From Geodermatophilus sp. DF01-2 (GTDB lineage: Bacteria; Actinomycetota; Actinomycetes; Mycobacteriales; Geodermatophilaceae), in NCBI RefSeq assembly GCF_004571065.1, contig NZ_SPQN01000002.1, positions 1 to 64,000 of the forward strand: a stretch of DNA of 64,000 nucleotides, in the 5' to 3' direction. Shown piece after piece: positions 34,975 through 61,292 of the stretch. The notes beneath the pieces were generated by a model, which was not told where the DNA came from, searched no databases, and was given only the letters and a program-made list of their open reading frames with translations. How positions within the stretch are numbered: position 1 is the first letter of the stretch; every line of letters begins with the position of its first letter. A program made the position numbers and the translations under genes.

Positions 34975-35679
34975 TTGCCTCGACACGCGGGGGCCGCCGA
35001 CGTCCTCACCGAACTGCGCACGGCCACGGCCGGCGAGCACGAGCAGGTGGAGACGGCCCTCGGCCTGATGGACCCGCTGCTCGGCCGCGAACGGTTGGTC
35101 GCCGTCCTCACCCGGCTGCATGCCTTCTGGACGGCGGCCGAGGCCGGCCTGGACGCCTGGGCGCGCCGCTGCCCCACCGACGCCGAGACCGTCGCGTGGC
35201 TGCAGCGCCGCCGTGCCCACCTCTTCGCCGCGGACCTGCGGGCGCTGCACGCCGCACCGGACACCTCGTCGGTGCAGCCCGAGCTGCCCGCCGTCGAAGA
35301 CACCGATCAGGCCCTCGGCCGGCTCTACGTGCTCGAGGGCGCCACGCTGGGTGGCACGTTCATCTCCCGGCACCTGGCCACGCTGCCGACCCTGGGCCCC
35401 GGCGTACGGCTGGGCGCCTTCTCCCCCTACGGAGCCGAGACCGGCGCCATGTGGCACGCCTACCGCCGGGTGACCCGCGAGCGGGTGGCCGCCGGCGGCG
35501 ACGCCGACCGGCTGGTCGGGGCCGCGCGTGACACCTTCGCGGCGCTGGCCGCCTGGTGCGTGCCGCGGAAGAACCCCGTCCTCCTCGCGCCTCGGAGAAG
35601 GACCCCGTCTCCCCACCCCTCGCAAGCTCGGGGCGGTGCCCGGACGGGGCCGAGCCTCGGGACGGGGCCTGCGGCATGA
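34975..35679 (+). CDS. bphO: Biliverdin-producing haem oxygenase
   Basis: 234 residues. It opens haem to biliverdin, the chromophore of the phytochrome encoded next. The haem-ligand His region is LRTATAGEHEQVETALG; YVLEGATLGGTFISRHLA is the family helix with the conserved Gly-rich segment. The start is TTG 34975, five bases from GGAGGAGAGG; ATG 34954 is in frame but lacks a ribosome site. After CVPRKN (~residue 200) the protein runs ~35 residues through a dispersed repeat (35598-35651), an unusual tail. The stop overlaps bphP by ATGA. Confidence 0.9.
   Translation: MPRHAGAADVLTELRTATAGEHEQVETALGLMDPLLGRERLVAVLTRLHAFWTAAEAGLDAWARRCPTDAETVAWLQRRRAHLFAADLRALHAAPDTSSVQPELPAVEDTDQALGRLYVLEGATLGGTFISRHLATLPTLGPGVRLGAFSPYGAETGAMWHAYRRVTRERVAAGGDADRLVGAARDTFAALAAWCVPRKNPVLLAPRRRTPSPHPSQARGGARTGPSLGTGPAA
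35598..35651. repeat. Dispersed repeat 'GGACCCCGTC', copy 2, inside bphO
   Basis: AAGGACCCCGTCTCC to GGACGGGGCC with CCCTCGCAAGCTCGGGGCGG in the middle, paralleling 29505-29560. A partial copy (AAGAACCCCGTCCTCCTCGC) lies just before it at 35572. It is translated as the C-terminal tail of BphO. Confidence 0.75.
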
Positions 35680-37985
35680 CCGGGCCCGACGTGGAGCTGC
35701 TGCCGCCGGGGACGCCGATCGACCTGGGCAACTGCGAGCGCGAACCGATCCACGTGCCGGGCAGCATCCAGCCGCACGGCGTGCTGCTCGCGGTGACCGA
35801 GCCCGACCTCGTCGTCGTGCAGGTCTCGGAGAACCTGGCCGACCTGGTCGGCGTGGCCGCCGACGACGCGCTGGGCCGGCAGCTGCCCGAGGTCCTCGGG
35901 GTGGTCGCCGCCGAGGCGGTGGCCCGGTCGGCGAGCGCCTTCGGCGACCTGCGCGAGCGCAACCCGGTCGAGATGACGCTCGACGTCGAGGGCAGCCCGG
36001 TGCCGGTCGACGCGCTGCTGCACCGCGTCGCCGTGGGCCCCGCCGAGGAGGGCAGCCCGCCGACGGCGCTGCTGGTCGTCGAGCTGGAGCCGGCGTACGG
36101 GCCTCGCCCGTTCTCGTTCCCGAACACCTACCAGGCGGTCCGCGGCACCCTCGGCGAGCTCAACCGCGCCACCTCGCTGCAGGAGCTCTACGACATCACC
36201 GCGCAGGCGGTCCGGGAGCTCACCGGCTTCGACCGCGTGATGGTCTACCGCTACGACGCCGATCACAACGGCGAGGTGGTCGCGGAGGCCAAGGCGCCCG
36301 GGCTCAACTCCTTCCTCGGTCTGCACTACCCGGCCAGCGACATCCCGGCACAGGCCCGAGCGCTGTACGAGAAGAACTGGATCCGGCTGATCTCCGACGT
36401 CGACTACCGGCCGGTGCCGCTGCGCCCGGTGCTGCTCCCGCTGACCGGGCAGCCCCTGGACCTCACCCTCTCGGCGCTGCGCAGCGTCTCGCCGATCCAC
36501 GTCGAGTACCTGCAGAACATGGGCGTGCGCGCCTCGATGTCGATCTCGCTGCTGCGCGCGGAGCGGCTGTGGGGGCTCATCGCCTGCCACCACTACTCCG
36601 GTCCGCACGCGCCGCCCTACGCGACGCGGGCGGCCGCCGAGTTCCTCGGCTCCACGCTGTCGCTGCGCCTGGTCGACCGGGCCGAGGAGGACGAGGTGCA
36701 CCGCGCGCTGCGGGTGCGCTCGACCCTCGCCTGGCTCACCGCGGCCACCCTCGACGAGGACCGCCCGCTGGCCGACACCCTGCTGGGCGCCCCCAGCCTG
36801 CTGGACCTGCTGCCCGCGGACGGCGTCGTCGTCCACCTGCAGGGCCACCGCGGCAGCCGCGGCGTCCCGCTGCCCGACGGCGCCGCGGAGGCGATCGCCG
36901 CGTGGGCCGCCGGCCGGCGAGAGGACGTCGTCGCCACCGACTCGCTGCCGCGGTCCGCCCCGGAGCTGCGGGTGCCGGTCGGTCCGGCGTGCGGGGTGCT
37001 CGTGCTGCCGCTGCCGGAGAGCCAGTACGTGCTGTGGCACCGGGCCGAGGCGGTGCGCACGGTCGACTGGGGCGGCGACCCGCACAACAAGGCGATCGCC
37101 GCGCGCGAGGGCGACCGGGTGCGGCTGAGTCCGCGCAAGAGCTTCGCGCGGTGGCGGGAGACCGTCCGCGACCGCTCCGAGCCGTGGACGGCGCAGGAGC
37201 TGGCCGAGGTCGGCGAGCTGCGCACCCACCTGCTGGAGGCCCTCTACGCGCGCTCGCGCAGCATCGTGCGCGCCGCGGAGACGCTGCAGCGCAGCATGCT
37301 CACCGACCCGCCGGAGTCCCCGCGGCTGCAGGTCGCCGTCCGCTACGTCCCGGCCGCGCGCGAGGCCCAGGTCGGCGGCGACTGGTACGACGTCTTCGGA
37401 CAGCCCGACGGCTCGACGGTGGTCGTCATCGGCGACGTGGTCGGGCACGACACCGAGGCCGCCGCCGACATGGCCCAGCTGCGCGGGCTGCTGCGCGGCA
37501 TCGCCTACGCCAGCGCCGACGGGCCGGCCGCCGTCCTGCGCCGGCTCGACGGCGCCGTGGCGGGGCTCGGGCTGCGCACGCTGGCGACCGTCCTCCTCGC
37601 CCGACTGATCCCCGACCCGGCGGGCGGCGCGCTGCTGCGCTGGTCCAGCGCCGGGCACCTGCCGCCGCTGGTCGCCCAGCCCCGCGAGGGCGTGCGGACG
37701 CTCACCACGGCGCGCGCCGAGCTGCTGCTCGGCGTCGACCCGGCGGTGCGGCGGACCGAGTCGGAGGCGCTGCTCGAGCCCGGCTCGACGCTGCTGCTCT
37801 ACACCGACGGGCTCGTCGAGCGGCGCGACCAGGTCTTCGACGTCGGTGTGCAGCGGCTGGCCGGCGAGCTGGCCGCCCTCCGTGCGCGGCCGGTCGAGGA
37901 CCTCTGCGACGACGTCCTCGACCGGATGCTCCCGCAGGGCGCGGAGGACGACGTCGCGCTCGTCGCCGTCCGGCTGCGCGGGTAG
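35676..37985 (+). CDS. bphP: Bacteriophytochrome with PP2C/SpoIIE phosphatase output
   Basis: 769 residues. A red/far-red photoreceptor. The PAS domain holds the biliverdin-binding Cys20 (NCEREPIHVPGSIQPHGV). The GAF domain has LHYPASDIPAQARALY near residue 219 and IACHHYSGPHAPPYATR. The PHY domain has VDWGGDPHNKAI and the tongue motif LSPRKSFARWRETV. From ~residue 520 a PP2C (SpoIIE/RsbU) domain replaces the usual histidine kinase: VGGDWYDVFGQPDGSTVVVI, GDVVGHDTEAAADMAQLRG, LLLYTDGLVERRDQVFD, EDDVALVAVRL. Output is therefore probably dephosphorylation of an anti-anti-sigma factor. It is coupled to bphO by ATGA. Confidence 0.95.
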   Translation: MTGPDVELLPPGTPIDLGNCEREPIHVPGSIQPHGVLLAVTEPDLVVVQVSENLADLVGVAADDALGRQLPEVLGVVAAEAVARSASAFGDLRERNPVEMTLDVEGSPVPVDALLHRVAVGPAEEGSPPTALLVVELEPAYGPRPFSFPNTYQAVRGTLGELNRATSLQELYDITAQAVRELTGFDRVMVYRYDADHNGEVVAEAKAPGLNSFLGLHYPASDIPAQARALYEKNWIRLISDVDYRPVPLRPVLLPLTGQPLDLTLSALRSVSPIHVEYLQNMGVRASMSISLLRAERLWGLIACHHYSGPHAPPYATRAAAEFLGSTLSLRLVDRAEEDEVHRALRVRSTLAWLTAATLDEDRPLADTLLGAPSLLDLLPADGVVVHLQGHRGSRGVPLPDGAAEAIAAWAAGRREDVVATDSLPRSAPELRVPVGPACGVLVLPLPESQYVLWHRAEAVRTVDWGGDPHNKAIAAREGDRVRLSPRKSFARWRETVRDRSEPWTAQELAEVGELRTHLLEALYARSRSIVRAAETLQRSMLTDPPESPRLQVAVRYVPAAREAQVGGDWYDVFGQPDGSTVVVIGDVVGHDTEAAADMAQLRGLLRGIAYASADGPAAVLRRLDGAVAGLGLRTLATVLLARLIPDPAGGALLRWSSAGHLPPLVAQPREGVRTLTTARAELLLGVDPAVRRTESEALLEPGSTLLLYTDGLVERRDQVFDVGVQRLAGELAALRARPVEDLCDDVLDRMLPQGAEDDVALVAVRLRG

Positions 37986-45684: not shown

Positions 45685-45706
45685 CCGGGCGGCTCCCGGC
45701 CGGTCA
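45682..45706. terminator. Hairpin holding both stop codons, lipase/idi
   Basis: TGACCGG and CCGGTCA form the arms. The first three bases are the lipase stop and the last three the idi stop read from the other strand. Confidence 0.6.
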
Positions 45707-46258
45707 GCCGACGGGGACCAGGCCCGCCTCCTCGATGAGCCGGGCCTGCTCCCGGCACCAGGGCGACCAGGCGTCACCGGCGTCGGTCTCCTGGCGCCGG
45801 CGGAAGTCGGCCCAGTCGAGCAGCGCCCAGTCGCCCACCTCGCCGGGATCCGGCGCCGGGGTGCCGCCGAAGCGGCCGAGGTAGACGGGGCAGACCTCGT
45901 TCTCCACGACGCCGCGGAACTCGGCGCGGTACCGGTAGCCCGGCAGCGCCGCGCGCAGGTCGTCCACCTGCAGGCCCAGCTCGAAGGCGGCGCGGCGGGC
46001 GATCGCGGCGCCGTCGTCCTCACCCGGGCCGGGGTGGCCGCAGACGGTGTTGGTCCACATGCCCGGGAAGGTCTGCTTGACCTCGGCACGGCGGGTGACC
46101 AGCAGCCGGCCGGCGTCGTCGAACAGGTAGGCGGAGAAGGCCCGGTGCAGCGGCGTCTCGCCGTGGTGCACCAGCGGCTTGGGCATCGTGCCGATCGCCG
46201 TCCCGTCGTCGTCGAGCAGGACGATGAGCTCATCGGAGGTGGCCGTCACTCTGTCCAT
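45704..46258 (-). CDS. idi: Isopentenyl-diphosphate delta-isomerase (type 1)
   Basis: 184 residues. A Nudix-fold enzyme interconverting IPP and DMAPP. Motifs: ELIVLLDDDGTAIGTMPK, HRAFSAYLFDDAGRLLVTRR, WTNTVCGHPGPGED (catalytic Cys) and AEFRGVVENEVCPVYLGR (catalytic Glu). The start is ATG 46258. Its ribosome site, AGGA in GGTAGGACGACA, lies inside a 16-mer that also heads an unrelated minisatellite at 53625. The whole upstream region is an 85-bp repeat array, so expression control is unusual. Confidence 0.95.
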   Translation of the reverse strand: MDRVTATSDELIVLLDDDGTAIGTMPKPLVHHGETPLHRAFSAYLFDDAGRLLVTRRAEVKQTFPGMWTNTVCGHPGPGEDDGAAIARRAAFELGLQVDDLRAALPGYRYRAEFRGVVENEVCPVYLGRFGGTPAPDPGEVGDWALLDWADFRRRQETDAGDAWSPWCREQARLIEEAGLVPVG

Positions 46259-46274
46259 TGTCGTCCTACCGGAC
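46259..46274. repeat. 16-mer TGTCGTCCTACCGGAC, copy 1
   Basis: Identical to 53625-53640. It directly abuts the idi start codon and supplies its ribosome-binding site on the minus strand. Confidence 0.9.
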
Positions 46275-46280
46275 TCCACC

Positions 46281-46557
46281 CGCGGCCCGGAGCCGTTCCC
46301 GGCCGCCGCTGAGCCGGTCCGCGGCCTCCTCGGGGAACCTCCGGCCCCACCTCGTCGACCGCAACCACGGCCCGGAGCCGTTCCCGGCCGCCGCTGAGCC
46401 GGTCCGCGGCCTCCTCGGGGAACCTCCGGCCCCACCTCCTCGACCGCAACCGCGGCCCGGAGCCGTTCCCGGCCGCCGCTGAGCCGGTCCGCGGCCTCCT
46501 CGGGGAACCTCCGGCCCCACCTCCTCGACCGCAACCACGGCCCGGAGCCGTTCCCGG
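46281..46557. repeat. Minisatellite, 85-bp unit, ~3.2 copies
   Basis: CGGCCCGGAGCCG recurs at 46283, 46368, 46453 and 46538, exactly 85 bp apart, with only scattered base changes (for example CTCGTCGACC against CTCCTCGACC). It fills the whole gap between idi and the divergent alpha/beta hydrolase gene, so it also lies upstream of both. No gene is present; long open frames through it arise from the repeat. Confidence 0.93.
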
Positions 46558-46616
46558 GTTCGAGCGCGAGGACGGAGACCCGGCGGTGCGGTCGGCGATC
46601 ACGACCAGCGGCGGGC

Positions 46617-47483
46617 ATGACCGCCGTGCTCCCCGGGCACCGTCCCGGGGTGGACAGCTTCCGACGCGACGGCATGGTCTTCGACGTCCGGGACGGCGGC
46701 CCGGCCGACGGCGAGCCGGTGGTGCTCCTGCACGGCTTCCCGCAGGATTCCGCCGCCTGGACCGCGGTGGCCGGCGAGCTGCACGAAGCGGGGCTGCGCA
46801 CGCTGGCACCGGACCAGCGGGGCTACTCCCCCAGCGCCCGGCCGTCGGGCCGCTCGGCCTACCGGCTGCGCGAGCTGACCGCCGACGTCCTGACGTTGCT
46901 CGACGAGGCCGAGCTCGGCAGCGCGCACGTCGTCGGACACGACTGGGGCGGCATCGTCGGGTGGGCGCTGGCGGCCTGGCACCCGGAACGGGTGCGCACC
47001 CTCACCGCGCTCTCGGTGCCGCACCCGGCGGCGATGGCCAAGGCGTTCGTCTCCAGCGACCAGGCGCTGCGCTCCTACTACATGGCGCTGTTCCAGGTGC
47101 CGGTGCTGCCCGAGCGGCTGCTGCTGGCGGTCGGTGGTGAGCCGCTGCGCCGCATGCTCCTGCGCAGCGACCTGCCACCCGACGTGGCCGAGCACTACGT
47201 GCAGCGGATGCGCGAGCCCGGTGCGCTCTCGGCCGCGATCGCCTGGTACCGGGCGCTGCCGCTCGGCGCCCGGAACCCGGTCGGCCGGGTGCGCGTGCCG
47301 ACCCTGCACCTGTGGAGCACCGGCGACGCGTTCCTCGGCCGCACCGCCACCGAGCAGACCCGGCAGTTCGTCGACGCGCCCTACCGGCTGGAGGTCCTCG
47401 AGGGCGTGACCCACTGGATCCCCGAGCTGGCACCCGAGCGGGTCGCCGAGCTGGTCACCGAGCACGTCCGCGCACACCCCTGA
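46617..47483 (+). CDS. Alpha/beta hydrolase (epoxide-hydrolase-like)
   Basis: 288 residues. Motifs: VVLLHGFPQDSAAWTAVAGE (HGxP oxyanion), LAPDQRGYSPSARP, HVVGHDWGGIVGWALAAWHP (nucleophile Asp in GHDWGG, as in soluble epoxide hydrolases and haloalkane dehalogenases), and a C-terminal GVTHWIPELAPERVAEL with the catalytic His. A cap domain lies between. The start is ATG 46617. The promoter must lie within or just after the 85-bp repeat array. Confidence 0.92.
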   Translation: MTAVLPGHRPGVDSFRRDGMVFDVRDGGPADGEPVVLLHGFPQDSAAWTAVAGELHEAGLRTLAPDQRGYSPSARPSGRSAYRLRELTADVLTLLDEAELGSAHVVGHDWGGIVGWALAAWHPERVRTLTALSVPHPAAMAKAFVSSDQALRSYYMALFQVPVLPERLLLAVGGEPLRRMLLRSDLPPDVAEHYVQRMREPGALSAAIAWYRALPLGARNPVGRVRVPTLHLWSTGDAFLGRTATEQTRQFVDAPYRLEVLEGVTHWIPELAPERVAELVTEHVRAHP

Positions 47484-47506
47484 CGCCCGACGCCCGAAGG
47501 TCAGGG
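47478..47506. terminator. Hairpin holding both stop codons, hydrolase/paaR
   Basis: CCCTGAC and GTCAGGG form the arms of a stem that includes the stop codons of the two convergent genes. Confidence 0.55.
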
Positions 47507-48109
47507 TCGGGCGCGCAAGCCCTGGAAGGTCGTGGCGACCAGCGCGTCGGCGAGGTCGTCCGCCGAGAGGCCACCGTCCGTGCGGTACCACTCGATGAGC
47601 GAGTTGACGGTGCCGAACAGCAGTCGGCTGGTGACGGCGGGGTCGATGTCGGGACGCACGTCGCCCTGCTCCTCGGCGGCGCGCACCAGGTCGGTGACGA
47701 TCCGGTCGAAGGTGCGCCGGCGGTCGAGGGCGGCGCGCTCGACCTCGGAGTTCCCCCGCACCCGGAGCAGCAGGGTCACGGAGGGCAGCTCCGCGGCGAG
47801 CACCCGGACCGAGCCGCGGACGACGTGCTCCAGCCGGTCGATCGCCCGGCCGGTGGTGGCGCCCGGCTCCTCGGTCACGGCGAAGAGCGCGTCGAGGGCG
47901 CGGTCCAGGGCGAGCCGGAGCAGGTCGACCTTGCTGGGGACGTGGTGGTAGATGGCCGACTTGGTGACCCCCAGCCGCGCGGCCAGCTCGTCCATGCTGG
48001 TCGCCTCGTAGCCGCGCTCGTTGAACACGGCGACGGCGACGTCCAGCAGGGACCCCAGCGAGTGCCCGGGCCGGCCGCGCCGTCCGGTCGTCGTCCCGGA
48101 CAGGCTCAC
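47501..48109 (-). CDS. paaR: TetR-family regulator of phenylacetate genes
   Basis: 202 residues. HTH: LLDVAVAVFNERGYEATSMD, ELAARLGVTKSAIYHHVPSK. The C-terminal domain is TetR-like (VVRGSVRVLAAELPSVTLLL; SRLLFGTVNSLIEWYR). The start GTG 48109 overlaps the paaK stop (GTGA), so it is the second gene of a paaK-paaR unit. A CTGACC-aggc-GGTCAG palindrome in the paaK/paaA promoter is its likely operator, and phenylacetyl-CoA its likely ligand by analogy with PaaR of corynebacteria. Confidence 0.88.
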   Translation of the reverse strand: MSLSGTTTGRRGRPGHSLGSLLDVAVAVFNERGYEATSMDELAARLGVTKSAIYHHVPSKVDLLRLALDRALDALFAVTEEPGATTGRAIDRLEHVVRGSVRVLAAELPSVTLLLRVRGNSEVERAALDRRRTFDRIVTDLVRAAEEQGDVRPDIDPAVTSRLLFGTVNSLIEWYRTDGGLSADDLADALVATTFQGLRARP

Positions 48110-49443
48110 GCCCCTGTCCGCTCACGCCGGTCGCTGATCCGCTGGAGCTTGCCGACCGACCGCGGCAGGCTCTCCGGCGCCACCACGACCACCTCCACGC
48201 TGGTGCCCACGGTGTCCTTGACCGCGCGCTCGACCTCCCGGGCCGCGGGGTCGCGACGCTCGGACGGGCAGTCCGGGCGGGCCTCGACCTCGACGGCGAG
48301 GTGGTCCAGCCGGCCGCGGGTGGTGAGCACCAGTCGGAAGTGCGGGGACAGGCCCGGCGTGCGGAGGACGACCTCCTCGACCTGCGTGGGGAAGAGGTTG
48401 ACCCCGCGCAGGATGATCATGTCGTCGGTCCGGCCGGTGACCTTCTCCATCCGGCGCATCCCCGGCCGCGCGGTGCCTGGCAGCAGGCGGGTGAGGTCGC
48501 GGGTGCGGTAACGGACGACGGGCATGGCCTCCTTGGTGAGGGAGGTGAAGACCAGCTCGCCGAGCTCGCCGTCCGGCAGCACCTCGCCGGTGAGCGGGTC
48601 GATGACCTCGGGGTAGAAGTGGTCCTCCCAGACGTGCAGACCGTCCTTGGTCTCCACGCACTCCTGGGAGACACCGGGGCCCATGACCTCGGACAGGCCG
48701 TAGATGTCGACGGCCTCGATGTCGAGGCGGTCCTCCACCTCGCGGCGCATCTGCTCGGTCCACGGCTCGGCGCCGAAGATGCCGATCTCCAGGGAGCTGG
48801 CCCGCGGGTCCAGGCCCTGCTTCTCGAACTCGTCGATGACGGTGAGCATGTAGCTCGGCGTCACCATGATGATCCGCGGGCGGAAGTCGGCGATCAGCTG
48901 CACCTGCCGCGGCGTCATCCCGCCGGACACGGGGATGACCGTGCACCCCAGCTTCTCGGCGCCGTAGTGCGCGCCCAGCCCGCCGGTGAACAGCCCGTAG
49001 CCGTAGGCGTTGTGCAGCCGGTCCCCCGTGCGGCCGCCGGCCGCGCGGATCGACCGGGCCATCACCGTGGCCCAGGTGTCGATGTCCTTCTCCGTGTAGC
49101 CGACGACCGTGGGCTTGCCCGTGGTGCCGGAGGAGGCGTGCACCCGGCGCACCTGCTCCTGGGGGACGGCGAACATCCCGAACGGGTAGTTGTCGCGCAG
49201 GTCGGCCTTGCCGGTCGTCGGGAACCGCGCCAGGTCGGCCAGCTCGCGGCAGTCGTCGGGGTGCACCCCGGCGGCGTCGAAGGCCCGGCGGTGGTGCGGC
49301 ACGTTCTCGTAGGCGTGACGCAGCGTCCACCGCAGCCGCTCGAGCTGCAGGACCCGCAGCTCGTCGACCCCCATCCGCTCCTCGGGGTCGAGCGTGTCCG
49401 GCTCGGGGGCGGCGCCCACGCGCCGGTCCGCGGTCGTCGTCAT
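48106..49443 (-). CDS. paaK: Phenylacetate-CoA ligase
   Basis: 445 residues. ATP-dependent activation of phenylacetate to phenylacetyl-CoA, the first pathway step. Adenylate-forming motifs: RVHASSGTTGKPTVVGYTEK (P-loop-like), YGYGLFTGGLGAHYGAEKLG, GIFGAEPWTEQMR, DIYGLSEVMGPGVSQEC, YRTRDLTRLLPG and a C-terminal VGKLQRISDRR with the catalytic Lys. The start is ATG 49443. It is divergent from paaABCDE with a shared 112-bp promoter region. Confidence 0.96.
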   Translation of the reverse strand: MTTTADRRVGAAPEPDTLDPEERMGVDELRVLQLERLRWTLRHAYENVPHHRRAFDAAGVHPDDCRELADLARFPTTGKADLRDNYPFGMFAVPQEQVRRVHASSGTTGKPTVVGYTEKDIDTWATVMARSIRAAGGRTGDRLHNAYGYGLFTGGLGAHYGAEKLGCTVIPVSGGMTPRQVQLIADFRPRIIMVTPSYMLTVIDEFEKQGLDPRASSLEIGIFGAEPWTEQMRREVEDRLDIEAVDIYGLSEVMGPGVSQECVETKDGLHVWEDHFYPEVIDPLTGEVLPDGELGELVFTSLTKEAMPVVRYRTRDLTRLLPGTARPGMRRMEKVTGRTDDMIILRGVNLFPTQVEEVVLRTPGLSPHFRLVLTTRGRLDHLAVEVEARPDCPSERRDPAAREVERAVKDTVGTSVEVVVVAPESLPRSVGKLQRISDRRERTGA

Positions 49444-49519
49444 GGCCCGCCGTCCCCCGTCCTTCCGGCGCCCACCTCTGGGGCGCTTGTGTCCCGCCGT
49501 GTCCTGGGCCACACTATTC

Positions 49520-49535
49520 CTGACCAGGCGGTCAG
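49520..49535. promoter_or_regulatory. TetR/PaaR-type operator in paaK-paaA promoter
   Basis: CTGACC-AGGC-GGTCAG, a perfect 6-4-6 palindrome 20 bp upstream of paaA. It resembles the actinobacterial PaaR motif with ACTGACCG/CGGTCAGT half-sites. It can control both directions. Confidence 0.8.
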
Positions 49536-49555
49536 TAAATACCTGAGGAGGGGCG

Positions 49556-50524
49556 ATGTCCACGCCGACTGTGGAGCACTCGCTGGACGAGGCGGCGTTC
49601 CATGAGCACTTCGACGCCACCATCGCCGCCGATCGGCGGATCGAGCCGCGTGACTGGATGCCGGAGGGCTACCGCAGGACGCTCATCCGCCAGATCGCGC
49701 AGCACGCGCACTCGGAGATCATCGGCATGCAACCGGAGGGTGACTGGCTGCTGGCCGCACCCAGCCTGCGGCGCAAGGCGATCCTGCTGGCCAAGGTCCA
49801 GGACGAGGCCGGGCACGGCATGTACCTCTACTCGGCCGCCGAGACCCTCGGCGCCGACCGCGCCGACCTCACCGACAAGCTCATCGAGCGCAAGCAGAAG
49901 TACAGCTCGATCTTCAACTACGCGACGCTCACCTACGCCGACGTCGGCGTCATCGGCTGGCTGGTCGACGGCGCGGCGATCTGCAACCAGGTGCCGCTGT
50001 GCCGCTCCTCGTACGGGCCCTACGCGCGGGCGATGATCCGCATCTGCAAGGAGGAGTCGTTCCACCAGCGGCAGGGCTACGAGCTGCTGATGACGATGAT
50101 GCGCGGCACGCCCGCGCAGCGGGCGATGGTGCAGGACGCCGTCGACCGGTGGTGGTGGCCCTCGTTGATGATGTTCGGCCCGCCGGACGACGACAGCCCC
50201 AACTCGGCGCAGTCGATGGCGTGGGGCATCAAGCGGCACAGCAACGACGAGCTGCGCCAGCGGTTCGTCGACATGACCGTGCCGCAGGCCGAGTTCCTCG
50301 GCGTCACCCTGCCCGACCCGGAGCTGCGCCTGGACCCGGAGACCGGCCACCACCGGTTCGGCGCCATCGACTGGGACGAGTTCAAGCGGGTCATCAGCGG
50401 CGACGGCCCGGCCAACGCCGAGCGGATCGCGCGCCGCCGGGCCGCCCGCGACGACAACGCGTGGGTCACCGAGGCCGCGACCGCCTACGCCACCAAGCAC
50501 GCCGCACGGAAGCACTCGGCATGA
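49556..50524 (+). CDS. paaA: Phenylacetyl-CoA epoxidase subunit A
   Basis: 322 residues. Catalytic di-iron subunit of the multicomponent oxygenase that epoxidises phenylacetyl-CoA. Iron-ligand helices: [20 protein letters not shown] (ExxH) and [20 protein letters not shown] (ExxH). Other family blocks: [18 protein letters not shown] and [19 protein letters not shown]. The start is ATG 49556 after GAGGAGG. It overlaps paaB by ATGA. First gene of the paaABCDE operon. Confidence 0.97.
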
Positions 50525-50889
50525 GCACCGACGTCACCGCCGAGGGCGGGCACGGCGCCGTCCCCACCGGCCCCGAGGTGCCGGTCGAGGCCACACCGGC
50601 GGCCAGCCGGCGGGACTGGCCGCTCTACGAGGTGTTCGTGCGCGGCAAGCGCGGCATCAACCACGTGCACGTCGGCTCGCTCCACGCCGCGGACGACGAG
50701 ATGGCCGTGCACGCCGCCCGCGACCTGTACACCCGGCGCAACGAGGGCGTGAGCATCTGGGTGGTCCAGGCCGCCGACATCACCGCGTCGAGCCCCGACG
50801 AGAAGGACCCGATGTTCGCCCCGAGCGGCGACAAGGTCTACCGCCACCCGACGTTCTACGAGATTCCAGAGAACGTCCCCCACATGTGA
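50521..50889 (+). CDS. paaB: Phenylacetyl-CoA epoxidase subunit B
   Basis: 122 residues. Small structural subunit bridging the PaaAC heterodimers. Signature [51 protein letters not shown] and [16 protein letters not shown] at the end. The N-terminal ~30 residues are an unrelated Ala/Gly/Pro extension. The start overlaps the paaA stop. A REP-like hairpin (50890-50932) begins at the base after its stop. Confidence 0.96.
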
Positions 50890-50932
50890 GCGGAGTCGCT
50901 CGGTGACGGTTTCCGCACTCGAGCGACTCCGC
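50890..50932. repeat. REP-like hairpin, copy 2, between paaB and paaC
   Basis: A perfect 13-bp stem (GCGGAGTCGCTCG) with a 17-base loop beginning GTGACGGTTTCC, the same loop start as at 30140-30196. It interrupts an otherwise overlapping operon and could process or partly terminate the transcript. Confidence 0.88.
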
Positions 50933-50947
50933 ACGAGGAGCACACGC

Positions 50948-51859
50948 ATGGCGCACGAAGAGACCGTGTACGAGGCGCTCGACCACGCCTCCGGCGGCGA
51001 CGGACACTGGGCCTTCGGCACCGGCTTCGACGAGCCGCTGGCCGGCGTCGACACCACGGTCCCCGAGGGCATCGACCCGGCCGACCTCGGCGAGTACTGC
51101 CTGATGCTCGGCGACGACGCCCTGGTCCTGGCGCAGCAGCTCACCCGGTGGGTCACCGCGGCGCCGGAGCTGGAGGAGGAGGTCGCCGTCGCGAACGTCG
51201 CCCTCGACCTGCTCGGCCAGGCCCGTCTCCTGCTGGCCCGCGCCGGCTCGGTCGGCGTCCTCGGCCGGGCCCGGGAGCAGGCCACCGAGTCGATCCCCGA
51301 CGAGGACGCGCTCGCCTACTTCCGCGACCCCGACGAGTACCGCAACACCGGCCTGGTCGAGGCACCCAACGGCGACTTCGCCCGGACGATGGTCCGGCTG
51401 CTGGCGGCCGCGACCGTGCGGCTGGCCGTCTTCGCCCGGCTCCGCGACTCCCGCGACCCGGTGCTCGCCGCGATCGCCGCCAAGGGCGTCAACGAGCTGG
51501 CCTACCACCGCGACCACGCCGCCCGCTGGGTGCTGCGCCTCGGGGACGGCACCGAGGAGTCGCACCGGCGCGCACAGGCCGGCGTCGACACGGTCTGGCC
51601 GCTCCTGGACGACGTCTGCACCGCCACCGACCTCGAGGTGCGGCTCACCGCGGCCGGCGTCGCGGTCGACCCGGCCGATGTGCGGGACGAGGTCAGCGAC
51701 GTGCTCACCCAGGTGCTCGAGCGGGCGACCCTCACGGCACCCGACTGGCCGGCCGCCGCACCACCCCGCGGCCGGCGCGGCGAGCACACCCCGGAGCTGG
51801 CCGAGCTGCTCACGGACCTGCAGGGGCTGGCGCGGCAGCACCCGGCGGCGACCTGGTGA
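50948..51859 (+). CDS. paaC: Phenylacetyl-CoA epoxidase subunit C
   Basis: 303 residues. Non-catalytic ferritin-like partner of PaaA: YCLMLGDDALVLAQQLTRWV, EEEVAVANVALDLLGQARLL, DALAYFRDPDEYRNTGLVEA, PNGDFARTMVRLL, AAIAAKGVNELAYHRDHAAR and WVLRLGDGTEESHRR. The start is ATG 50948 behind GAGGAG. The stop overlaps paaD by GTGA. The hairpin immediately upstream is the only spacer in paaA-D. Confidence 0.96.
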   Translation: MAHEETVYEALDHASGGDGHWAFGTGFDEPLAGVDTTVPEGIDPADLGEYCLMLGDDALVLAQQLTRWVTAAPELEEEVAVANVALDLLGQARLLLARAGSVGVLGRAREQATESIPDEDALAYFRDPDEYRNTGLVEAPNGDFARTMVRLLAAATVRLAVFARLRDSRDPVLAAIAAKGVNELAYHRDHAARWVLRLGDGTEESHRRAQAGVDTVWPLLDDVCTATDLEVRLTAAGVAVDPADVRDEVSDVLTQVLERATLTAPDWPAAAPPRGRRGEHTPELAELLTDLQGLARQHPAATW

Positions 51860-52383
51860 CCGCGGTGAGCAGCCGATATCGCGACATCGACACCGTCGAT
51901 CCCCGGACGATCGCCGAGACGGTCACCGACCCCGAGCTGCCGCAGCTGACCCTCGCCGACCTCGGGGTCCTGCGCGACGTCCGCGTCGTGGAGGGCATCG
52001 TCGTCGTGGAGATCACCCCGACCTACACGGGCTGTCCGGCGATGGGCACGATGCGCGCCGATCTGATGCACGCACTCCACGCGGCCGGCTTCCCCGACGT
52101 CGACGTCCGCACCGTGCTCGCCCCCGCGTGGAGCACCGACTGGATCTCCGCAGCCGGCCGGCGCAAGCTCGCCGAGGCCGGCATCGCGCCGCCGGGCAGT
52201 GCGCCGGTCCGCGCCGACGGCCCGGTGCCGCTCCAGCTCGGGCCTCCGCGCCGGACGGCGTCCTGCCCCCTGTGCGGCTCGCCCGACACCGAGGAGCTGA
52301 GCGAGTTCGGCGCGACCGCCTGCAAGGCACTGCGCCGCTGCCTCAGCTGCCGGGAGCCCTTCGAGCACGTGAAGGAGATCTAG
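51856..52383 (+). CDS. paaD: Phenylacetate pathway maturation protein PaaD
   Basis: 175 residues. The N-terminal MIP18/DUF59 domain (TVTDPELPQLTLADLGVLRD; EITPTYTGCPAMGTM) is followed by a C-terminal four-Cys zinc motif (CPLCGSPDTEELSEFGATAC; RRCLSCREPFEHVKEI). It is thought to help insert the Fe-S cluster or di-iron site of the epoxidase. The start is GTG 51856 overlapping paaC; GTG 51865 is an alternative. A 160-bp repeat-like spacer separates it from paaE. Confidence 0.94.
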   Translation: MTAVSSRYRDIDTVDPRTIAETVTDPELPQLTLADLGVLRDVRVVEGIVVVEITPTYTGCPAMGTMRADLMHALHAAGFPDVDVRTVLAPAWSTDWISAAGRRKLAEAGIAPPGSAPVRADGPVPLQLGPPRRTASCPLCGSPDTEELSEFGATACKALRRCLSCREPFEHVKEI

Positions 52384-52391
52384 GTGCCACG

Positions 52392-52533
52392 ACAGCGAGC
52401 GAGCATCGCAGCGAGATACCAGGAGCCGGCAGCGAGTGAGCATCGCAGCGAGCGCCAGCGAGCGAGGAGCGGAGCGAGCGCGGAGGCGACCCATGCGGTC
52501 GAGCGAGGAGCGGAACGGGCGCGGAGTGGCACG
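52392..52533. repeat. GCGAGC-rich imperfect repeats between paaD and paaE
   Basis: CAGCGAGCGAGCATCGCAGC and CAGCGAGTGAGCATCGCAGC occur about 39 bp apart, followed by two copies of a CGAGCGAGGAGCGGA-type block. The stretch is low in complexity and has no gene, yet lies inside the operon. Confidence 0.75.
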
Positions 52534-52544
52534 GGAGGAACGGC

Positions 52545-53621
52545 GTGACCGCGAGCACCCGGCGCCGGCCGCAGTTCCACCCGCTGAAGGTGGCCCGCGT
52601 CGAGCAGCTGACCGACGACGCGGTCGCGATCACCTTCGACGTCCCGTCGGAGCTGGTCGAGGACTACGCGTTCAAGCCCGGCCAGGCGCTGACCCTGCGC
52701 CGCGTCGACGGCGACCGGGACGAGCGGCGCTCCTACTCCATCTGCGCCCCGGTGGGTGCCGCTCCGCGCGTGGGCGTCCGCGAGGTGCCCGGGGGCTTCT
52801 TCTCCTCCTACCTGGTGCACGAGGTCGCGGTCGGTGACGAGATCGAGGTGCTGCCGCCGTCGGGCACCTTCACGGCCGACCTCGCCGTTCCGGCCGACCA
52901 CGTCTTCGTCGTCGCCGGTTCCGGCATCACCCCGGCCCTCTCGCTGGCCGCAAGCGTGCTGCGCGACGGGGAGTCGACGGTGACCGTCCTCTACGGCAAC
53001 CGACGTACGAACACGGTGATGTTCGCCGACGAGCTGGCCGACCTGAAGGACCGCTACGGCACCCGGCTGCAGCTCGTGCACGTCCTGTCCCGCGAGCCAC
53101 GGGACGCCGAGCTGACCAGCGGCCGGCTCGACGGCGCCCGGCTGCGCACGCTCGTCGACAACCTCGTCGACGCCGAGCACGTCGACCACTGGTGGCTGTG
53201 CGGTCCGCACGGGATGGTCAGCGACGCCCGCGAGCTCCTGGCCCGGCTCGGCGTCCCGGCCGAGAAGGTCCACCAGGAGCTGTTCTACGTCGACGACGTC
53301 CCGCCCGAGCCGGTCCGCGGCGACGAGGAGACGGTGTCGGGGCCCAGCAGCGAGGTCACCGTCGTCCTCGACGGCCGGACGACGACCATGGCCCTTCCCC
53401 GTGACGTCCCGGTGCTCGACTCGGCCCAGCGGGTGCGCGGGGACCTCCCCTTCGCCTGCAAGGGCGGCGTCTGCGGCACCTGCCGGGCTCGGGTCACCGA
53501 CGGCGAGGTCGCGATGCGGCGCAACTACGCCCTCGAGCCGGAGGAGGTCGAGGGCGGCTACGTGCTCACCTGCCAGACGCTGCCGCTGTCGGAGGCCGTG
53601 ACCGTGGACTTCGACCAATAG
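52545..53621 (+). CDS. paaE: Phenylacetyl-CoA epoxidase reductase subunit
   Basis: 358 residues. It passes electrons from NADPH to PaaA. FAD domain (FKPGQALTLRR, RRSYSIC), NAD domain (VFVVAGSGITPALSLAASVL; WWLCGPHGMVSDARELL) and a C-terminal plant-type [2Fe-2S] domain with four Cys (PFACKGGVCGTCRARV, then LTCQTLP). The start is GTG 52545 after GGGAGGAAC. The 86-bp repeat array begins 28 bases after its stop. Confidence 0.96.
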   Translation: MTASTRRRPQFHPLKVARVEQLTDDAVAITFDVPSELVEDYAFKPGQALTLRRVDGDRDERRSYSICAPVGAAPRVGVREVPGGFFSSYLVHEVAVGDEIEVLPPSGTFTADLAVPADHVFVVAGSGITPALSLAASVLRDGESTVTVLYGNRRTNTVMFADELADLKDRYGTRLQLVHVLSREPRDAELTSGRLDGARLRTLVDNLVDAEHVDHWWLCGPHGMVSDARELLARLGVPAEKVHQELFYVDDVPPEPVRGDEETVSGPSSEVTVVLDGRTTTMALPRDVPVLDSAQRVRGDLPFACKGGVCGTCRARVTDGEVAMRRNYALEPEEVEGGYVLTCQTLPLSEAVTVDFDQ

Positions 53622-53624
53622 CAC

Positions 53625-53640
53625 TGTCGTCCTACCGGAC
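53625..53640. repeat. 16-mer TGTCGTCCTACCGGAC, copy 2
   Basis: Identical to 46259-46274. Here it extends to a perfect GTCGTCC-TACC-GGACGAC hairpin, three bases after the paaE stop. Confidence 0.9.
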
Positions 53641-53648
53641 GACACCGC

Positions 53649-54026
53649 GGCCAGGCGCCGTCCCCCACCAGCGCGGAGCCGCTGCCCATGTCCCGGCCGG
53701 GAGATCCTCCGGACCCCCACGACCGGGCCACCCCGGCCAAGCGCCGTCCCCCACCAGCGCGGAGCCGCTGCCCATGTCCCGGCCGGGAGATCCTCCCGAC
53801 CCCCACGACCGGGCCACCCCGGCCAAGCGCCGTCCCCCACCAGCGCGGAGCCGCTGCCCATGTCCCGGCCGGGAGATCCTCCCGACCCCCACGACCGGGC
53901 CACCCCGGCCAGGCGCCGTCCCCCACCAGCGCGGAGCCGCTGCCCATGTCCCGGCCGGGAGATCCTCCCGACCCCCACGACCGGGCCACCCCGGCCAAGC
54001 GCCGTCCCCCACCAGCGCGGAGCCGC
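53649..54026. repeat. Minisatellite, 86-bp unit, ~4.4 copies
   Basis: GCCGTCCCCCACCAGCGCGG recurs at 53657, 53743, 53829, 53915 and 54001, exactly 86 bp apart, nearly identical. The unit differs from the 46.3-kb array but has parallel blocks (GGAGCCG, CCTCC, CCCCAC, GACCG). It lies between paaE and the convergent EthD-like gene; no gene is present. Confidence 0.95.
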
Positions 54027-54041
54027 CCCACCACCAGGAGG

Positions 54042-54362
54042 TCAGTCGCCCTCGGGCCGGTGCGGTTCGGCGGAGAACATGGTGACCAGGTCCGTCCCGC
54101 CCCACGAACCCAGGTCCTTTCCGGCCGCGGCCCACTCCGGGGAGCGGAACGCCTCCTTCATCGCCTCGGGCGACTCGAAGACGAGCTCGGCGAGCAGGTG
54201 GTAGCCGGGCTCGCCGACGAACTGGCGGGTCACCCGGTGCACCCGGTTGGCCACGAGGCCGGGTGTCTTCTCGACCAGCGGCACGTGGCTGCCGAAGTAG
54301 TGCTGCTCGAAGTCGGCCGGGTCGTCCGGCGTCCGGTAGAGGGCGAAGTAGCTGACGGTCAT
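54042..54362 (-). CDS. EthD-family protein
   Basis: 106 residues of the EthD dimeric alpha/beta-barrel type: SYFALYRTPDDPADFEQHYF, SHVPLVEKTPGLV and VFESPEAMKEAFRSPEW. Such proteins occur beside degradative oxidations; the exact activity is unknown. The start is ATG 54362. It converges on the paa operon, with the 86-bp array as the spacer. Confidence 0.88.
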   Translation of the reverse strand: MTVSYFALYRTPDDPADFEQHYFGSHVPLVEKTPGLVANRVHRVTRQFVGEPGYHLLAELVFESPEAMKEAFRSPEWAAAGKDLGSWGGTDLVTMFSAEPHRPEGD

Positions 54363-59191: not shown

Positions 59192-61292
59192 CGACACGGC
59201 GCCGCTCGGATCCCCGGGTGCATCGTCGGCCGAATGCGCCCTGACCGCGGTACTCGAGCGTCCGGACGCCGTTCCGGTGACGCTGGGGGCCGGGAAGCTG
59301 TTCATCGTTGACGTGCTGCACCCGGAGTTGCGCGGTGGCTGGGCGTGGGCGCTCGATACCGCGGCGCCTCGGCACCGGGTGAGCGCTACGGCACTCGGGT
59401 CCGTCGCTGGCGCCGACGCCGAGTTCCCGGACGCCGAGGGGCTGGCCGCGGGTGCCGCCGAGCTGGACCGGCTGCTGGCCGCGGGTGCGGAGCCGTTGGC
59501 GCGGGCCGCGGCGGCGTCGCGGGAGATCGCCCGCCTGTCGGCGGTGGTCGCGGTGTCGCTGGCGGAGTTCGCCCGGTGTCGGCCGGCGGCGCTGTTCGAT
59601 CGACAGCCCGGCGAGCGCGGGGCGATGTCGGCGGCGACCCGGGCGGCGCGGCCGGCGGCGCTGACCGAGGTCAGTGAGTGGGCGGTGGACGAGGTGGCGC
59701 CGACGCTGCGGATCAGCGGTGCGGCGGCCGGCGCGCAGCTGGCCGAGGCGCTGGTACTGGTCGAGCGGCTGCCGCGCACGCTGGAACTGTTCGGCCGGGG
59801 GGAGCTGAGCCCGGCGCATGCCCGGCAGATGGTGACCGTCGTGGGTCCGGTGGCCGATGACGGGCTGCGGGCCGACATCGAGGCGCACGTGCTGGGCCTG
59901 CTCGAGGACAAGACGCCGCCCCAGCTCGGGGACTGTGCCCGGCGGATCGTGCTGCGCCGTGATGCCGAGGCCGCCGCGCGCAAGCTGGTGGCCGCGGTCC
60001 GGGAGCGGGGGGTGCGGCTGCACGACCGCCGTGACGGCACCGCCACCGTGGCGATCGATCTGCCGCTGCCGGCCGCCGCGGCGATCTACCGGACCCTGGA
60101 GGCCCACGCCGAGCAGGCCCGGGTCGACGGTGACGAGCGGACCAAGCAGCAGCGGATGGCCGACGTCGTGCAGGACCTGATCTTGCGGCCCGGCGAACAC
60201 GGCATGCCGCCGGTCACCATCGCGCTCACTCTGGTGGCCACCCTGGAGACGATGCTCGGCGGCGCCGAACCCGGGCAGGTCGAGGGGCACCTGGTGCCGG
60301 CGGCGCTGGTCCGTGAGCTCGGCTACGCCTTCAGCCTGATGCCCCGCCCCGCCCCCCACCTCGACGATCTTCCGGACGGCGGGACGGGGTACGAACCGGC
60401 GACAACTCGTGCCCAGCCGGTTGCGGCCGGGCACGACGCCGACCACGTCGAGTCGGACACCGCCGCCGGCCATCCGGCGCCGCGCGTGCCGTCGACGAAG
60501 CCACCCGCGGGTCAGCAGCAGCCGGCGTCGCCTGCTGAGGTGCCGCTTCCCTCGCCGGGTGCTCGGCCCGAGTCGTCGACAGAACTGGAACCCGGACCGG
60601 TACTGGGACCTGAGCCCGACCCCGCACCTGAGCCCGGCCCCGGACCTGAGCCGGGACCGGGACCAGCACCCGGACCCGTACCCGTGCGGGACCGTTCACT
60701 CTCGGAATGGCTCTCGTGGGCCGCGGCACGCCACGAGGCCGCCATCCGGGAGGGGCTGGCCGGTGCCGCGCAGGCGATCCGCGATGGCGTGTGGACCGAT
60801 GGCGAGCTGCGCGCGGTCCTCGACCTGGGCGCGCTGATGGGGGTGCGCGACCTCGCCGGCACCGGTCTGGCGCATCGGCCGCACATCGCCATCGTCGACC
60901 AGCTGCGCGGCAGCCTGGTCGCCCTCACCGACGCCACCGGCATCCGCCGCGGTGCTGCCCTCGGCCCGCCCGGCGCGACCGACGGCTACACCCCGGGGGC
61001 CGAACTCGACCGGTTCGTCCGGCTACGTGATCGTCGCTGCCGTTTCGTGGGCTGCCGCGCCCGCGCTCGGAAGTGCGACCTCGACCACCGCCGAGAGTGG
61101 CCCGACGGGCCCACGTCTCATGACAACCTGTGTTGCACCTGCGAGCACCACCACCGGCTCAAGCACCAGGCACCGGGGTGGCATTTCGATGCGGCTGACG
61201 ACGGCGGCCTGGCGATCACCATGCCCAACGGCGAGGTGAGGGTCAGCCACCCACCCAGGTTTGGCACCGACCTCGACATCCCGCCCTATTGA
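59184..61292 (+). CDS. DUF222/HNH endonuclease-like (13E12 family), SOS-regulated
   Basis: 702 residues. The N-terminal DUF222 domain (~60-400) includes AEALVLVERLPRTLELFGRG, ELSPAHARQMVTVVGPV and KQQRMADVVQDLILRPGEHG. A ~90-residue low-complexity linker rich in Glu-Pro-Gly (GPEPGPGPAPGP) follows. The HNH domain is at the end (RCRFVGCRARARKCDLDHRR, EWPDGPTSHDNLCCTCEHHH, RLKHQ) with zinc Cys and catalytic His. Such genes are the mycobacterial 13E12 repeat family, several of which are LexA targets; the SOS box here fits. Possibly a selfish or DNA-repair nuclease. Confidence 0.92.
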   Translation: MFDDTAPLGSPGASSAECALTAVLERPDAVPVTLGAGKLFIVDVLHPELRGGWAWALDTAAPRHRVSATALGSVAGADAEFPDAEGLAAGAAELDRLLAAGAEPLARAAAASREIARLSAVVAVSLAEFARCRPAALFDRQPGERGAMSAATRAARPAALTEVSEWAVDEVAPTLRISGAAAGAQLAEALVLVERLPRTLELFGRGELSPAHARQMVTVVGPVADDGLRADIEAHVLGLLEDKTPPQLGDCARRIVLRRDAEAAARKLVAAVRERGVRLHDRRDGTATVAIDLPLPAAAAIYRTLEAHAEQARVDGDERTKQQRMADVVQDLILRPGEHGMPPVTIALTLVATLETMLGGAEPGQVEGHLVPAALVRELGYAFSLMPRPAPHLDDLPDGGTGYEPATTRAQPVAAGHDADHVESDTAAGHPAPRVPSTKPPAGQQQPASPAEVPLPSPGARPESSTELEPGPVLGPEPDPAPEPGPGPEPGPGPAPGPVPVRDRSLSEWLSWAAARHEAAIREGLAGAAQAIRDGVWTDGELRAVLDLGALMGVRDLAGTGLAHRPHIAIVDQLRGSLVALTDATGIRRGAALGPPGATDGYTPGAELDRFVRLRDRRCRFVGCRARARKCDLDHRREWPDGPTSHDNLCCTCEHHHRLKHQAPGWHFDAADDGGLAITMPNGEVRVSHPPRFGTDLDIPPY

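Follow-up and report, generated by a model that had tools for sequence, protein, structure and literature searches.

Two tandem arrays of different sequence in the genome of Geodermatophilus sp. DF01-2 start beside one and the same 16-mer, TGTCGTCCTACCGGAC. Are they two unrelated minisatellites, or two members of one repeat family? The window analysed here, a stretch of 64,000 nucleotides (positions 1 to 64,000 of contig NZ_SPQN01000002.1, forward strand), had been interpreted in a sequence-only reading as carrying one family of spreading element, led by the 16-mer and loaded with variable cargo. Our analysis indicates that the window arrays are very probably local expansions of a dispersed non-coding hairpin repeat of the Geodermatophilaceae, a family to which the genus Geodermatophilus belongs, and that this repeat probably spreads as a non-autonomous element with an amplifiable body.

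Both arrays were recovered by Tandem Repeats Finder (TRF), with a period of 85 bp repeated 3.2 times and of 86 bp repeated 4.5 times. The 16-mer is identical beside both of them (46259-46274 and 53625-53640); these are its only exact occurrences in the window, and three further matches have two or three mismatches. Within the two arrays the units shared 97.6-100 % identity. A plain alignment of a unit of array 1 with a unit of array 2 gave an identity of 0.62, inside the range of 500 shuffles (mean 0.562, maximum 0.649). A profile built on 41 copies from other species, holding no sequence of the DF01-2 genome, detected array 2 (E 1.3e-19) and array 1 (E 6.2e-15) and matched further units separately, while the best match in the reversed window had an E of 5.9. 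Matching blocks in the same order, as proposed for the two units, were thus confirmed by the profile and not by the plain alignment.

A repeat family of the Geodermatophilaceae

In its length of about 110 bp the element has TGACAYC and hairpin A, followed by ACACCGCGGCCAGGTGCCGTCCCC and, past a variable stretch, by GCTGAGCC and hairpin C. Its head consists of TGACAYC and a 7-bp hairpin with the loop usually TACC or TCC; its body consists of a conserved box, GAGCC and the second hairpin (C) around a TCC loop, and can be tandemly duplicated. The 16-mer is the most frequent spelling of the 7-bp hairpin of the head, and other copies build the same hairpin from other letters. In the DF01-2 genome, the 15-mer GTCGTCCTACCGGAC (the 16-mer minus its leading T) was present 17 times and its reversed control not at all; the complete 16-mer was present four times. 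Loci sampled from the genomes, rather than whole genomes, yielded 145 distinct elements, 75 from DF01-2 and 70 from other genomes. Usable heads numbered 132, after subtraction of 11 headless matches (10 in DF01-2) and two heads with more than one hairpin mismatch (the copy at idi and locus L230). Two or more adjacent matches were present in 25 of the 75 DF01-2 elements; in L043 and L136 these were doubled heads, not bodies. Two heads in a row, spaced about 31-35 bp, were seen in L043 (2848-2990), L039 and L136, so a head can double while the body does not. In four loci of other species (L010, L011, L028, L060), hairpin C is followed downstream by CGCCTCGCAGGGCGGCTCACC or a near variant as a third short hairpin-like stretch. 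The idea of a variable cargo was not borne out: the body is a homologous segment differing in sequence between copies. Of 15 arrays, only four had a unit length divisible by three, and coding for a repeat protein was rejected on this ground.

Hairpin A is maintained by compensatory change. Among 64 of the 65 heads of DF01-2 (63 usable heads with the idi copy put back, L230 left out), 95.5 % of the 447 cells of the stem pair. Changes on both sides affected 42 cells versus 11.2 in shuffles (none of 500 reached this value), and sliding the partner as a control lowered the pairing to 13.6-55.3 %. One pair of this stem occurs as UA in 36, GC in 21, CG in 4 and AU in 1 of the copies. It was the whole profile that detected most of these copies; the copies of L035-L047 entered through the 15-mer. 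The third pair of hairpin C likewise varies (CG 35, GC 21, TA 12 of 75). As the stem pairs covary in the copies of DF01-2, the letters of the 16-mer are to be seen as one spelling of a conserved hairpin. RNAalifold found no pair changed on both sides in alignment A1, which, unlike the set of 64 heads, had been chosen for the exact 15-mer and is poorly aligned in its second half. Known Rfam RNAs were rejected as an identification: the window gave only two tRNAs at the gathering score, and seven element loci searched up to an E of 1 gave one sub-threshold match to Ref55, located outside the element.

A covariance model built on 52 copies, two of them from the window and several from genomes that were also counted, detected the element in 26/26 members of the genus, in 8/11 other Geodermatophilaceae genomes and in 0/24 genomes from the rest of the order. 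The 34 element-bearing genomes had between 4 and at least 62 matches each; DF01-2 itself had at least 113, array units included. The 15-mer was present in 20 of 61 genomes (18/26 of the genus, 2/11 of the other genera of the family, 0/24 of the rest of the order), its reversed pattern with five matches in four of the other genomes. An exact 21-mer, sought in one genome each of 84,980 species, occurred in 61 stretches, all 61 in Geodermatophilaceae and labelled Geodermatophilus, Blastococcus or Modestobacter. By 60-mers in common, several genomes of the genus could be linked to named Geodermatophilus species: G016 to G. chilensis, G010 to G. aquaeductus and G022 to G. sabuli. One homologous repeat family, seen only in Geodermatophilaceae, is shown by these searches; the proposal of a single spreading family was right: the 15-mer is a marker for a repeat dispersed in this group, arrays recur, and at one shared site the species differ in unit number. 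Carriage by phages or plasmids was rejected: the exact 21-mer was absent from the viral contigs, and array 2, the only array run, had no match to plasmids and phages.

Gene ends, arrays and site occupancy

The head is often phased to stop codons. Upstream of 79 of the 132 heads, at a distance of up to about 60 nt, a gene in the same orientation comes to its end, and the stem begins 3-5 nt past the stop codon in 47 of these 79, at exactly 4 nt in 33. These counts come from a stop search that reached about 60 nt upstream with the frame set by codon score, hence gene ends farther away are not among the 79 and the starts are rough. TGAC is part of the element too, because it is also enriched where the stop codon lies elsewhere: in the two other groups by gene context, of 32 heads each, T occupied position -7 in 69 % and 47 % and C position -4 in 88 % and 81 %. 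The enrichment was weaker in the unclassified group of 21 heads (T at -7 43 %, C at -4 71 %). Convergent gaps were favoured, with 49/126 elements vs 42/285 comparison gaps (odds ratio 3.7, p 1.6e-7), and divergent gaps were avoided, with 9/126 vs 68/285 (odds ratio 0.25); for 19 of the 145 elements a called gene was missing on one side, and the comparison gaps stem from the window and 61 named loci, partly other loci than those of the elements.

Arrays recur, with units mostly of 84-94 bp and one of 118 bp. A leading role of the 16-mer failed in both directions. Its head is mostly without an array: only 16 of the 81 distinct copies of the 15-mer received an array flag, L024 among them with a count of 1.0 copy, and 4 of 108 occurrences too near a locus end were skipped. 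Conversely, nine multi-unit elements of DF01-2 have a differently spelled head (L116, L117, L120, L135, L138, L196, L203, L206, L209). Arrays do not require the 16-mer, and the 16-mer does not guarantee an array. Since multi-unit elements occur under other head sequences, it is the hairpin and the body that define the family, not the letters of the 16-mer. The arrays are in-place duplications of the body.

Occupancy was compared at a site beside a gene which we take to be CheX-like. Of 25 genomes, five have the complete element and 18 lack it; G017 (by profile) and G019 (by eye) retain a remnant. Unit numbers in the five species with a complete element were 1, 1, 2, 2 and 2 or more. The array of DF01-2 at this site ends contig C37, and the same unit opens contig C1, together with the far flank. 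Further draft contigs, in total C1, C37, C122, C127, C137, C161 and C175, end inside arrays or within a few dozen bases of them. Arrays seem to break the draft assembly and may be collapsed; as contig ends fall inside arrays, the unit numbers in this draft may be too low. In single-contig genomes, with matches grouped into loci by hand, arrays were present at 3 of 36 loci in G013 (5, 3 and 2 units), at 3 of 29 in G024 (7, 2 and 2 units) and at none of 17 in G027.

The two copies in the window

The following features make up the two copies and their surroundings; the gene names are presumed identities of open reading frames (ORFs).

45704-46258, minus strand: idi, taken to be isopentenyl-diphosphate isomerase; ORF with the called start ATG at 46258-46256
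46253-46557, plus strand: element copy 1, head and array, between the divergent idi and alpha/beta-hydrolase genes; TRF and profile
46259-46274, plus strand: 16-mer, degenerate head hairpin GTCC-TACC-GGAC, the right arm going on as TCC, not GAC
46283-46557, plus strand: array 1, 85-bp units, 3.2 copies; TRF, 98 % matches, score 536
46617-47483, plus strand: presumed alpha/beta-hydrolase gene, divergent neighbour of array 1; ORF
52545-53621, plus strand: presumed paaE-like gene; ORF with the stop TAG at 53619-53621, 4 nt ahead of hairpin A
53619-54026, plus strand: element copy 2, head and array, between convergent genes; TRF, covariance model and profile
53626-53643, plus strand: hairpin A, GTCGTCC TACC GGACGAC; sequence, covariation in 64 copies
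53643-54026, plus strand: array 2, 86-bp units, 4.5 copies, the last unit partial and stopping at GAGCCG; TRF, 98 % matches, score 740
54042-54362, minus strand: presumed EthD-like gene, convergent neighbour of array 2; ORF

Both arrays had been described as sitting at gene ends. This holds for array 2, which spans from just behind the paaE stop to the 3' side of the convergent EthD-like gene, and does not hold for array 1, which lies between divergent genes and against the start of idi. In copy 1 the covariance model matched 46253-46364, 46347-46449 and 46433-46534, the window copies being among the 52 rows of the model. The right arm of the head hairpin is degenerate at idi and likewise in L200, L206 and L209. 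The start of idi would more likely be GTG at 46249-46247 than the called ATG, judged by the better fit to the upstream sequences of relatives; from this GTG the message would be leaderless, with GACAAT as putative -10 box, and the 16-mer likely overlaps the idi promoter. Two relatives without an element at idi, G009 and G015, have GTCGTCCTGCCGGCC and GTCGTCCTGCCGGGC in the place of the 15-mer, hence part of the leader at idi may be native promoter sequence.

Both window sites were empty in 20 of 20 relatives, i.e., the 20 genus genomes with a PaaE match and likewise 20 with an Idi match. The profile had no match at E up to 1 in these 40 loci, which were also inspected by eye, and matched both loci of DF01-2. 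In G017, the only one of the 20 relatives seen with the same next gene after paaE, the paaE and EthD-like genes converge as they do in the window, with a short native hairpin, TGACCCCGGGTGGCCGGGGTCA, filling the space between them.

Other repeats were noticed in passing. A second dispersed GC-rich repeat with the core CCCACCCCTCGCACGCTCGG has 12 exact copies in DF01-2 (reversed control 0) and at least one copy in 19 of 19 genus members searched, with none in 12 genomes from the rest of the order. A degenerate copy lies in the window at 35568-35680; the repeat is also present in L037, L205 and L213 and sometimes abuts the hairpin element (C119:75690-75808, C33:19107-19250). The gap ahead of paaE (52390-52515) contains degenerate short repeats, CAGCGAGCGAGCATCG and similar. 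At 60606-60682 an 18-bp repeat, GGACCTGAGCCCGGACCC, occurs 4.3 times and is by eye unrelated to the hairpin element.

Proposed mobility, rival explanations and known systems

Occupancy that is patchy from site to site, related copies in their tens and the remnants led us to infer a mobile non-autonomous repeat, most likely a BOX- or MIRU-like element. Such an element would be moved in trans by a separate enzyme which places the head at TGA(C), in many cases a stop codon. Bodies would then be gained and lost by slippage or unequal crossing-over, so that the arrays grow and shrink while their units stay similar within an array but differ from one array to another. In transcripts, two hairpins behind the stop could form a structure of the 3' untranslated region (3'-UTR) with a role in termination, stability or ribosome release, by which insertion behind stops would be cheap and insertion between convergent genes perhaps useful. 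Position and structure make an effect on transcript ends plausible. A bolder version, which we regard as speculative and improbable, would see a new class of mobile element: its enzyme would read the TGAC-plus-hairpin head and insert at stop codons, sparing genes, and the amplifiable body would serve as a 3'-UTR module of variable length tuning the upstream gene.

Several observations weigh against a mobile repeat with such a role. The exact right end of the element could not be defined, nor could a target-site duplication, and no clean empty-site pair was available as the flanks are too diverged. Copy 1 lies between divergent genes, opposite to the general trend of the element. Co-directional gaps were neither preferred nor avoided (68/126 vs 175/285, p 0.16), and the co-directional copies of DF01-2 run in both directions (19 ++ and 16 --), hence a strand-specific role as RNA is not favoured. 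Compensatory change could also result from palindrome correction at the DNA level. Of four hand-checked foldings of other element types on the plus strand, one clearly beat its shuffles (z -3.8, -0.3, -1.5, -1.9), and no U-tract was seen 3' of the hairpins. Both flanks were alike across species in 48 locus pairs; many copies are therefore old, and counts from different species are not independent of one another. The Y1/RAYT transposase family PF01797 was found in 0/25 genus members, DF01-2 included, with the control positive in 5 of 14 named genomes, E. coli among them. The IS91-type family PF04986 was found in 0/41 genomes, where the control was equally silent, so this result has little weight.

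The strongest competitor is a native regulatory or terminator motif, a 3'-end signal kept by selection with the arrays as a by-product and no mobility. The hairpin directly after stop codons, the excess of convergent gaps, the compensatory changes and the many sites common to several species all agree with it, as does the different native hairpin in the paaE-EthD gap of G017 at the place of the window array. Selection on a hairpin would not, however, repeatedly recreate a conserved box of about 24 letters and GCTGAGCC, both outside the hairpins; the patchy occupancy of the CheX-like site and the copies between divergent genes speak against it as well, and we consider it possible but doubtful. 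An action of the hairpin on the terminating ribosome, tuning the upstream gene with a strength set by the unit number, is unlikely. It would suit the 4-nt spacing from the stop, and E. coli REPs within 15 nt of the stop are described as stalling ribosomes in the available part of PMC12306157; it would be possible only for the 79 of 132 heads behind co-oriented genes, and arrays lie elsewhere too, e.g., at idi. Membership in the REP/BIME repeats of a RAYT system, with an IS200/IS605-like tyrosine transposase, was rejected as very improbable. The short palindrome, the fixed flank on one side and the intergenic position near stop codons resemble these repeats, but PF01797 is missing from the 25 genus members, the flank is TGACAYC in the base frequencies of the 132 heads instead of GT(A/G)G, the homologous body is long and the array units are direct repeats. 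Two unrelated minisatellites with the 16-mer in common by coincidence or because of the idi promoter, as the plain unit identity and the partial match of the 16-mer to the native promoter sequence of relatives might suggest, were dismissed as next to impossible, since the profile free of DF01-2 sequence detects both arrays and their further units and finds nothing comparable in the reversed window.

The element appears to represent a hitherto undescribed family of repeats in an entire family of actinobacteria from soil and stone; phasing to stop codons comes together in it with a covarying hairpin head and a body that can be amplified. No description of such a repeat of the Geodermatophilaceae was found in the literature covered, i.e., open-licence papers. 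In the available part of one source on genomes of this family, palindromic repeats are mentioned only for CRISPR (PMC9686282), and the accessible text of another, in which isolates were fingerprinted by BOX-A1R PCR, describes no such element (PMC2625358). The arrays break draft assemblies and could serve as typing markers. The absence of a REP-type transposase from 25 genus genomes raises the question which enzyme moves the element.

Among known systems, the miniature inverted-repeat transposable elements (MITEs) are likewise short, non-coding and present in many copies at patchy sites; unlike for these, no terminal inverted repeats, target duplication or parent transposon could be identified for the Geodermatophilaceae element, with a parent search that covered two transposase families. 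REP/BIME repeats share a palindrome after a fixed short flank, the intergenic position and, in part, closeness to stop codons, as far as the available parts of PMC2817692 and PMC12306157 describe them. Like a REP, the element of the Geodermatophilaceae has a palindrome kept by complementary change; it differs in the absence of a RAYT-type protein from 25 genus members, the lack of a GT(A/G)G head, the much longer conserved body and the direct repeats.

Closer are two other systems. Mycobacterial MIRUs are dispersed intergenic units of variable tandem number, and the tandem number of our element varies between species. According to the accessible portion of PMC12548453, MIRUs insert at start codons and carry an ORF coupled at -4 nt; MIRUs and the present element are both mobile-looking intergenic units of actinobacteria with a fixed spacing to a codon. 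In contrast to MIRUs, the Geodermatophilaceae head is phased to stop codons, and few of its arrays have a unit length divisible by three. BOX elements, of which 125 are reported for one genome of Streptococcus pneumoniae in the available text of PMC3049150, are there likewise small modular intergenic elements whose inner module occurs in one or more copies, with RNA hairpins and a distribution largely within one lineage. Terminal inverted repeats and target duplication, as considered for BOX, meet flanks too diverged for a clean empty-site pair in the Geodermatophilaceae. Unlike in BOX, no separate third module was seen to close the Geodermatophilaceae element, just a partial body, and the element is phased to stop codons; the likeness, drawn from description, is one of architecture.

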